Of a stretch of 64,000 nucleotides of DNA, positions 33,842 to 36,010 are shown piece by piece. Origin of the DNA: Cytophagales bacterium. Its GTDB lineage: Bacteria > Bacteroidota > Bacteroidia > Cytophagales > Thermoflexibacteraceae. How positions within the stretch are numbered: position 1 is the stretch's first letter; every line of letters starts with the position of its first letter. The translations under genes were made by a program, and so were the position numbers. The notes under the pieces are model-generated. The model was given only the letters and a program-made list of their open reading frames with translations. It was not told the DNA's origin and did not search any database. The stretch covers positions 124,001 to 188,000 of the forward strand of contig JAAFKA010000004.1 in assembly GCA_013299115.1 (NCBI GenBank), written 5' to 3'.

Positions 33842-36010
33842 ATGAATTCACAACAGTTTTTGCCCATAGCCAAAAAATTAGCCGACCTGACAGATTTTAA
33901 GTATAAAAATTTTGCTCTGACAGACAATTATTATAACAGAATAGACTTTGGTGATGAGGTAGATAATTTTGTGGAAGGATTGACTGCCAAATGCGAAAAA
34001 ATTAGTTTAGCATTGGTGCGTCATACGGTTTCCAAAGCTAATTTTCCAGATTTGCTCGATGCCTTAGAAAGTCCATTTTTGACTTTTGTAAAAGATGAGC
34101 AACGGACTGTTCCTATTATTTTTTACAAAGAAGCAGGCGAAGTGGAGGCTTATGTTTTTGCCGACAATGGCTCGGTAGATGTGGACGATGATGCCCAACG
34201 ATACTGGGACAAACTGGTAGAAACCAAAAAAGATGAGATTAGTTATGTTTTGCCTTTTCCGTTGCCTTCTCTGGTCAGTGATGATGAGCAAGGTACTATT
34301 ATTACGCCAATTACCAGATTATTTCGCCTTTTATTGACCGAAAGAAAGGATATTGCCTACCTCTATTTTTATGCTTTTATCATTGCCATTGTCAATTTGT
34401 CTTTGCCTTTGGGTATTCAGGCAATCTTGCAGTTGGTATCGGGTGGCGTTATTTTCAACTCCATTGTGCTGTTGATTGGCTTTGTGATTATGGGCGTTGC
34501 AGTGGGCGGCGTGTTGCAAATTATGCAATATTCCATAGTAGAGGTGCTGCAACGGCGACTGTTTACGAAAGCAGCTTTTGAGTTTAGCTACCGACTCCCT
34601 CGCATACGCAACGAGGCTTTGCTCAATTACTATGCTCCTGAACTCATGAACCGTTTTTTTGAGGTCATTACCCTCCAAAAAGGGTTGCCCAAATTGTTGA
34701 TAGACTTGGCGGGTGCTATTTTGCAAATTTTGTTTGGTATGGTGCTGTTGTCGTTTTATCACCCATTCTTTGTGTTTTTTGGTATTGCCGTTATTACCAT
34801 TTTGATTTTGATATTTTACCTCACAGGCGGGGCTGCTTTGCGGTCAAACATTGTGGTATCGAAGTACAAATTTAAGATGGTGTATTGGTTGCAAGAGCTG
34901 GCAAGAACCTTGACTTCTTTCAAATTGGCAGGTTATACCGAATTGCCTTTGAGCAAAACCGAAAGTTTGGTAAACAGTTACCTCTACTATCGCAAAAAAC
35001 ACTTTCAGGTCTTAATGACTCAATTTCTGAACATTTTGGCTTTCAAAACCCTCATTGTTGGTGGTTTGTTGTTAATAGGTACAAGTTTGGTAATTAACCG
35101 CCAAATCACATTGGGGCAATTTGTAGCTGCCGAAATCGTAATTATTTTGGTTATTGGTGCAGTAGAAAAAATTATTTTGAATATGAGCAATATTTACGAT
35201 ATGCTCACGGCAGTAGATAAATTGGGCTACATTACCGATATGCCCTTAGAAAGAAAAGGTGGAGTTTATTTGCAATACAAAAAACACGAAGGTATGCAAA
35301 TCAAAATCAAAGATTTGTCTTACAGGTATCCCGATTCGCCAAGTTATGTATTGCAAGACGTGAATTTAGAAATTCAGGCAAGTGAAAGAGTAGGGTTGGC
35401 AGGTTACAGTGGGTCGGGCAAAAACTCCTTAGTCAAAGTTTTGTCGGGTGTACTGCACAATTATCAGGGCAGCGTGGCTATCAATGGTTTGCCCTTGCGG
35501 GACATCAATTTGGTTTCTCTGCACAACGCCATAGCCAAAAACGTATCGATGGAAGAGCTTTTTGACGGCACTATTTTGGAAAATATCACCATGGGCAGAC
35601 CTTCTGTAAGTTATGATGATGTGTTGTGGGCAATAGACAAGATTGGTTTGATAGACACCATTAACAGCTTGCCCGATGGCTTGATGACTCACGTCATTTC
35701 AGGTGGCAAAAGATTGTCGAGTAGTATCAATATCAAGTTGATTTTGGCAAGATGCGTAGCCGAAAGACCACAAGTAATGATTTTGAATGACTTTTTGCAC
35801 GACTTGAACAAAGAGGAAAGAGTGAGAATAGTGAAGTTTTTGCTCGACCGCAGCAATCCTTGGACTTTAATCAGTGTATCTAACGAACCTTTAATCCTCG
35901 AAGGTTGCGACAGAATTATATTAATGAACAAGGGCAAAGTAGCAGAACAAGGCTCGTACAAAGAGCTAATGAAAAATCCAATTTTTCAAGAAGTAGTTGC
36001 ATCAGATTAG
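33842..36010 (+). CDS. ABC exporter-like protein with degenerate ATPase site
   Basis: 722 residues. N-terminal soluble domain (about 1-155) of unknown type, then six membrane helices (about 180-440) in the type I exporter pattern, then a nucleotide-binding domain (about 480-722). Its catalytic motifs are altered: Walker A reads GYSGSGKNS (521-529; Asn528 where Ser/Thr is expected), Walker B and the catalytic Glu read MILNDF instead of LLLDEP, and the H-loop reads SVSNEP without His. The signature ISGGK survives. It probably binds ATP poorly or not at all and may need an active partner, as in asymmetric exporters. The following gene is an NtrC-type regulator. Confidence 0.85.
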   Translation: MNSQQFLPIAKKLADLTDFKYKNFALTDNYYNRIDFGDEVDNFVEGLTAKCEKISLALVRHTVSKANFPDLLDALESPFLTFVKDEQRTVPIIFYKEAGEVEAYVFADNGSVDVDDDAQRYWDKLVETKKDEISYVLPFPLPSLVSDDEQGTIITPITRLFRLLLTERKDIAYLYFYAFIIAIVNLSLPLGIQAILQLVSGGVIFNSIVLLIGFVIMGVAVGGVLQIMQYSIVEVLQRRLFTKAAFEFSYRLPRIRNEALLNYYAPELMNRFFEVITLQKGLPKLLIDLAGAILQILFGMVLLSFYHPFFVFFGIAVITILILIFYLTGGAALRSNIVVSKYKFKMVYWLQELARTLTSFKLAGYTELPLSKTESLVNSYLYYRKKHFQVLMTQFLNILAFKTLIVGGLLLIGTSLVINRQITLGQFVAAEIVIILVIGAVEKIILNMSNIYDMLTAVDKLGYITDMPLERKGGVYLQYKKHEGMQIKIKDLSYRYPDSPSYVLQDVNLEIQASERVGLAGYSGSGKNSLVKVLSGVLHNYQGSVAINGLPLRDINLVSLHNAIAKNVSMEELFDGTILENITMGRPSVSYDDVLWAIDKIGLIDTINSLPDGLMTHVISGGKRLSSSINIKLILARCVAERPQVMILNDFLHDLNKEERVRIVKFLLDRSNPWTLISVSNEPLILEGCDRIILMNKGKVAEQGSYKELMKNPIFQEVVASD

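Follow-up and report, generated by a model that had tools for sequence, protein, structure and literature searches.

The exporter gene described here lies in a stretch of Cytophagales DNA of 64,000 nucleotides, referred to below as the window, where an intact open reading frame at 33842-36010 on the forward strand starts with ATG, contains no internal stop and encodes a protein of 722 amino acids. AF2 predicts the structure of the full protein with a pLDDT of 87 and a pTM of 0.85, and the solved folds nearest to this model are those of PCAT1, HlyB, TM287/288 and MsbA. Both the six-helix membrane domain of ABC exporters and the fold of the nucleotide-binding domain (NBD) are present in the model, which matches TM287/288, MsbA and PCAT1 at Z of about 30-32. 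In Pfam, PF00005 is found above its cut-off (E 2e-15) and PF00664 below it, while all NCBIfam models fall below their cut-offs among the matches listed (25 of 165), the best of them scoring 181 vs 853 bits. Models likewise stay below their cut-offs among the matches listed for three relatives of the window exporter. The gene stands alone, its neighbours being a 203-aa ORF and one that by eye looks like a sigma-54-type regulator. Its features are collected in Table 1.

Table 1. Positions in the window of the exporter gene, its domains and its altered motifs.
Feature	Coordinates	Strand	Size or basis
Pseudo-ATPase ABC exporter: C39-like domain, six-helix membrane domain and degenerate NBD	33842..36010	+	722 aa
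N-terminal C39-like domain (presumed), residues 1-152; first helix without Cys	33842..34297	+	AF2 pLDDT 91; PCAT1/ComA/HlyB matches
Membrane domain, residues 155-470, with the type IV fold of ABC exporters; better conserved than the rest of the protein	34304..35251	+	Fold and conservation
First intracellular loop, PELMNRFF..QKG motif, residues 258-290; kept in NBD-less relatives too	34613..34711	+	Alignment
Second intracellular loop, presumed coupling-helix-2 region, SFKLAGYT, residues 354-369; motif absent from NBD-less relatives	34901..34948	+	
TM6 charged residues Glu431, Glu442 and Lys443; near-invariant across the exporter family	35132..35170	+	
Degenerate NBD, residues 486-715	35297..35986	+	Pfam, AF2, alignment
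Walker A GYSGSGKNS, Ser/Thr to Asn528	35402..35428	+	Alignment
Q-loop position, Gln to Ser569	35546..35548	+	Alignment
Signature position, LSGGQ to LSSSI (625-629)	35714..35728	+	Alignment
Walker B VMILND, Asp to Asn649, catalytic Glu to Asp650	35774..35791	+	Alignment
H-loop, His to Asn681	35882..35884	+	Alignment

The motifs of the window protein were read by alignment with its orthologues and with two other exporters of the same genome. Lys527 and the glycines of Walker A are still present, and the six further features of the ATP site that were checked are all altered; the motif set for ATP hydrolysis, consisting of the Walker A Ser/Thr, the Walker B Asp, the catalytic Glu, LSGGQ and the H-loop His, is not carried by this protein. 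A first-pass annotation had already pointed to three of these changes, and the alignment bears them out: Asn follows Lys527 in Walker A, ILND occupies the place of the Walker B Asp and catalytic Glu, and Asn replaces the H-loop His. The signature, which the same annotation took to be intact, is altered as well, since the ISGGK that it had read (619-623) lies upstream of the true position, where LSSSI aligns with LSGGQ of the two other exporters.

The N-terminal region was claimed earlier to match no known domain, and Pfam alone indeed gives nothing above cut-off for these approximately 150 residues. In a structure search with the full model, only HlyB (8dck_A) covered this region among the 50 matches listed. 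However, the model of the domain alone (pLDDT 91) has its best matches in the C39 and C39-like domains of PCAT1, ComA and HlyB, with Z of 8-10 over about 120 residues at 3-8 A, although other papain-like folds (CtaG, PeiR) trail at Z 8.4-8.5, so that the lead of the C39 group is small, and Foldseek returns one match only below E 1e-3. As its first helix has no Cys, the predicted domain is presumably a non-proteolytic C39-like domain. The C39-like domain of HlyB tethers unfolded cargo (PMC8277102).

A search of 59 related genomes, with that of the window included, detected an orthologue of the exporter in 46, and loss of motifs or of the whole NBD was found in all 41 proteins examined, which come from 40 of these 46 genomes. 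Across the phylum, a membrane-domain query at E 1e-30 identified relatives in 97 of 395 genomes, 96 of which have one family exporter and one of which, G030, has two. This genome (loci L042 and L043) is also the sole one among the 59 to contain the complete trio of exporter, HlyD and TolC twice, and both of its exporters are degenerate. A scan of named genomes recovered at least 584 relatives from Cytophagales, Flavobacteriales, Chitinophagales, Saprospiraceae and other groups, and the best 80 of them were taken forward. Relatives also occur on 7 of 72,556 plasmid records at E 1e-60, including those of Persicobacter (CP012852.1, NZ_AP025293.1) and plasmids of about 102 kb in Riemerella anatipestifer. 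Among the open-licence PMC papers listed, none on this exporter family was found.

Removal of three identical proteins left 158 distinct proteins from 161 loci, and one at a contig end (L192) was omitted from the motif counts. Among the 129 NBD-bearing proteins of the main clade, the Walker A Lys is kept in 126 and the Ser/Thr next to it in 93, while the Walker B Asp is found in 32, the catalytic Glu in 10, both of these in three, and the H-loop His in only two. None of the 129 combines Walker A GK[S/T] with all of Asp, Glu and His, and in 31 the Ser/Thr, Asp, Glu and His are all missing. Which motifs are lost varies by lineage, a pattern to be expected when selection for hydrolysis has ceased. 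Two separate lineages (L067:7965-9716 and L150:5614-7272) have an erased P-loop in an NBD of retained length. In a set of 17 basal relatives, Lys, Ser/Thr, Asp and Glu are present in all, and His, and with it the complete set of four features, in 13, while the signature and Q-loop are not fully canonical in these proteins either. Two basal-type exporters (L157 and L158) have intact Asp and Glu and an H-loop Asn, with an upstream gene that looks RecG-like by eye; HlyD and TolC were not found at the L157 locus, and the L158 contig ends just after the exporter. As a control we used one active exporter, whose 30 ORFs were chosen by the Walker A pattern in related genomes, with no locus failing the pattern; all 30 orthologues have Walker A, Q-loop, signature (LSVGQ), Walker B, Glu and H-loop in intact form. 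The earlier view that the decay is not random is thus upheld, as the ATPase motifs are consistently lost in an exporter that is otherwise maintained. Homologues with normal motifs, which that annotation had named as a sign of a strain-specific loss, do exist in the 13 basal proteins, but they are confined to a deep basal branch, which dates the motif loss as old; the loss is not specific to one strain.

Domain conservation was compared pairwise, with 57 proteins taken from the degenerate set of 129 and 11 from the basal set of 17. Conservation of the NBD exceeds that of the membrane domain in none of 1596 degenerate pairs (means 32.4 vs 50.3%) and in 7 of 55 basal pairs (45.2 vs 54.6%), as against 420 of 435 pairs of the active control (n=30; 72.7 vs 63.7%). 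Since the membrane domain is also the better conserved domain in the basal group, part of this inversion predates the motif loss. Comparison of the window protein with its closest relative, L034, gives a membrane-domain dN/dS of 0.08 and an NBD dN/dS of 0.10 at a dS of about 1.6, which is near saturation. Synonymous sites are saturated in many comparisons, and the finite values, the only ones quoted, are 0.03-0.08 for membrane domains, 0.04-0.13 for NBDs (three pairs), and 0.06 and 0.19 for N-terminal domains. These NBD values, together with the Lys kept in 126 of 129 proteins, suggest that a retained NBD is still of importance to the protein, perhaps along with its binding of nucleotide.

The exporter is usually accompanied by two partners. 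HlyD and TolC genes lie within 7 kb on the same strand at 136 of 161 loci, some of the others ending at contig ends, and Pfam identifies the partner proteins at L037 as HlyD_3 and OEP. The genome of the window has one HlyD match (C32) and one TolC match (C51), both unlinked to the exporter, with 60 and 53% identity, respectively, to the L037 operon proteins. Exporter and HlyD are either both present or both absent in 58 of the 59 genomes (Fisher p 1.2e-11, a test that ignores kinship), and exporter and TolC in 57, again ignoring kinship; the exporter occurs in 46 genomes, HlyD in 47 and TolC in 48. The mismatches are G003, an assembly of 390 contigs and 89% completeness with HlyD and TolC and no exporter, and G055, where neither exporter nor HlyD was found and a TolC match in a frame of 159 aa (G055:C1:1345232-1345690) may be left over from a lost operon. 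A second half-exporter was sought by ORF clustering, judged by length and by eye, and none was found near the gene in the window and in 80 loci from outside the named-genome scan; the earlier suggestion of an inactive half of a heterodimer thus finds no support at these loci. Only three other ABC-type ORFs are near the exporter in these loci, two of 259-282 aa and a 621-aa tandem ATPase next door in the window, and none of the clustered ABC-type ORFs lies near HlyD or TolC in the window's genome.

A further group of 11 relatives, 332-352 aa long, stops after the membrane domain and has no NBD at all. In a quick tree search of 154 membrane domains, reduced from 158 by removal of four near-identical rows and rooted by us on L172/L173, these proteins make up one side of a single branch (SH-aLRT 100) that is nested inside the degenerate clade. 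Among them are three records from Spirosoma and one from Larkinella. HlyD starts between 8 bases before and 118 bases past the exporter stop in all 11 loci. At least 100 residues precede the membrane domain in 51 of 129 degenerate and 13 of 17 basal proteins and in none of these 11. Relocation of the NBD to another site was considered and rejected: with one NBD as query, seven NBD-less genomes yielded no family NBD at any other site, and the best of the matches listed there (E 1.6e-26 to 3.4e-31) lie inside other exporters of at least 590 aa, while the same query finds the fused NBD in three NBD-bearing genomes at E 4e-63 to 4e-75. A sensor, the other role suggested by the first-pass annotation, may still apply to NBD-bearing forms, but given 11 members of the same operon type without it, the NBD is dispensable in this branch. 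One such protein, L069, has no NCBIfam match at E 1e-20 and only ABC_membrane in Pfam at E up to 0.1, and by Pfam it does not belong to SbmA/BacA. Two genes past TolC at this locus there is an ABC ATPase ORF, flanked by sensor-kinase-like and permease-like ORFs with a short regulator-like ORF beyond the latter; by eye we judged it to be unrelated to the exporter. In genus g18, L071 of genome G040 is NBD-less and L060 of G023 is NBD-bearing without a C39-like domain. The G040 protein groups on the tree with proteins of family f23, which, next to its NBD-bearing congener, suggests horizontal transfer of a working module. As far as sequence comparison reaches, these results show an old, lineage-wide loss of ATP-hydrolysis motifs, followed in a nested clade by deletion of the NBD, with the membrane domain, HlyD and TolC retained.

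Charged residues in TM6 set this membrane domain apart from those of the active exporters compared. Glu431 is present in 155 of 157 proteins (Asp in one, Gln in one), an acidic residue at position 442 in 155 and Lys443 in 152. In contrast, the 32 active exporters, of which 30 are orthologues of a single one, have Ile, Val or Met at position 431, Arg at 442 in 30 cases, and mostly Met or Leu at 443. However, most basal members, whose Walker motifs are intact, already have Glu431 (16/17) and Glu442 (13/17), so these residues are not the sign of a change to proton drive; they could represent a pre-adaptation, and proton use is not proved by them. SbmA/BacA transporters have a ladder of glutamates in the cavity, for which Glu431 and Glu442 would be candidate counterparts at most. 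Of the intracellular loops, the second has lost its SFKLAG motif in NBD-less proteins, whereas the first keeps PELMNRFFDV, and something may therefore still dock there.

We give an even chance to the reading that the window protein belongs to a type-1-secretion-like tripartite exporter that transports without ATP hydrolysis, possibly driven by protons, and that has converged on SbmA/BacA. What we infer for the window exporter extends to transport, energy source and cargo alike. The protein would be the inner-membrane part of an exporter completed by a HlyD-type adaptor and a TolC-type outer-membrane channel, would descend from a type-1-secretion or PCAT-like ABC transporter, and would still work as a transporting homodimer that hydrolyses no ATP. 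What is left of the NBD would act on the intracellular loops, either as a regulator or as a structural clamp, and would be dispensable. By analogy with SbmA and with NBD-truncated MsbA, the likeliest energy source would be a proton gradient acting on the membrane domain: published accounts describe SbmA-type transporters as proton-driven without NBD or coupling helices (PMC13316013), and MsbA without its NBD as exporting drugs by the proton gradient (PMC4979069). At 69 of 161 loci the exporter start has a TetR-type gene no more than 1.5 kb away, which suggests a small molecule or lipid as cargo, though this is a guess; no cargo gene was recognized by eye among the exporter's neighbours.

Other explanations have to be weighed against this. 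The six altered features of the window protein could by themselves reflect strain-specific decay or a pseudogene, but the full-length frame, the low dN/dS, the orthologues in 46 of 59 genomes and the loss of motifs or NBD in 41 of 41 proteins refute this, and its chance is negligible. The conserved Walker A Lys and the purifying selection on the NBD in the three measurable pairs would fit an ATP-binding switch, in which the NBDs bind ATP through Walker A and gate the exporter without turnover, in the manner of a degenerate site or a sensor; degenerate sites have been proposed to hold ATP as glue (PMC7756269). We nevertheless consider such a switch unlikely, because the signature and the Walker B Asp are altered in most proteins, the P-loop is lost in L067 and L150, and 11 members of the same operon type have no NBD.

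An exporter energized in trans, through pairing with an unlinked active half-exporter or ATPase, would account for the first intracellular loop conserved in NBD-less members, and the related genomes do contain many other ABC exporters. This looks quite improbable to us, however, as neither a half-exporter near the gene, nor, among the clustered ORFs, an ABC-type one near HlyD or TolC in the window's genome, nor a family NBD in the seven NBD-less genomes was detected in the searches above, and the second-loop motif vanishes together with the NBD. Finally, the protein might not be a pump, and as a passive channel or a scaffold anchoring HlyD-TolC for cargo from the membrane or periplasm it would need no substitute for ATP, which agrees with its strong co-retention with both partners. 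This possibility seems improbable, since no part of the protein is better conserved than the membrane domain, over its full extent, and a plain anchor would have no obvious need for that.

The proposed non-ATP exporter resembles HlyB/PCAT1-type exporters of type 1 secretion in domain order, in the folds of its three domains and in having HlyD and TolC partners, to which the C39-like N-terminal domain, optional in that class, may be added; it differs from them in that the ATPase motifs of the family are degenerate or the NBD deleted, and in that the window protein is below cut-off among the 25 NCBIfam models listed. Heterodimeric exporters with one degenerate site include TM287/288, TAP and CFTR. 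As in this class, which PMC7756269 reviews, the Walker B Glu and the H-loop are altered together, but no partner half-transporter was found near the window exporter or in the 80 loci, and one or more of the four key features is missing from each of the 129 main-clade NBD copies, so that both sites of a homodimer would be affected. With SbmA/BacA, the proton-driven peptide importers (SLiPT), the family shares a membrane domain of ABC-exporter descent and, in its 11 NBD-less members, the absence of NBD and coupling-loop motif. Unlike SbmA/BacA, it adjoins HlyD and TolC and presumably exports, has living intermediates with degenerate NBDs and keeps the first intracellular loop, and the window protein itself retains a degenerate NBD. 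MsbA-MD and LmrA-MD are likewise ABC exporter membrane domains without NBD (PMC4979069), but they are laboratory truncations, whereas the NBD-less relatives of the window exporter are natural. Among the open-licence PMC papers listed on this subject, only PMC13316013 appeared to deal with natural NBD loss.

In summary, we tentatively propose, as a possibility we rate somewhat below even, that Bacteroidota preserve a series in which a type-1-secretion-like ABC exporter became a non-ATP, probably proton-driven pump feeding HlyD-TolC, with the intact, degenerate and NBD-deleted stages all extant. If true, an SbmA-like secondary transporter would have arisen here without descent from SbmA, and as far as the searches of open-licence PMC papers reach, no earlier case in a tripartite exporter is known. 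The use of ATP defines ABC exporters, and here a single ancestry holds Walker-intact, motif-dead and motor-less forms with the same membrane domain and partners, so the conversion of a primary pump can be tested by comparing living members. Many Bacteroidota look-alikes of the 'ABC transporter ATP-binding protein' probably do not hydrolyse ATP, and the family would, if the proposal holds, reveal an unrecognized way to power tripartite exporters.
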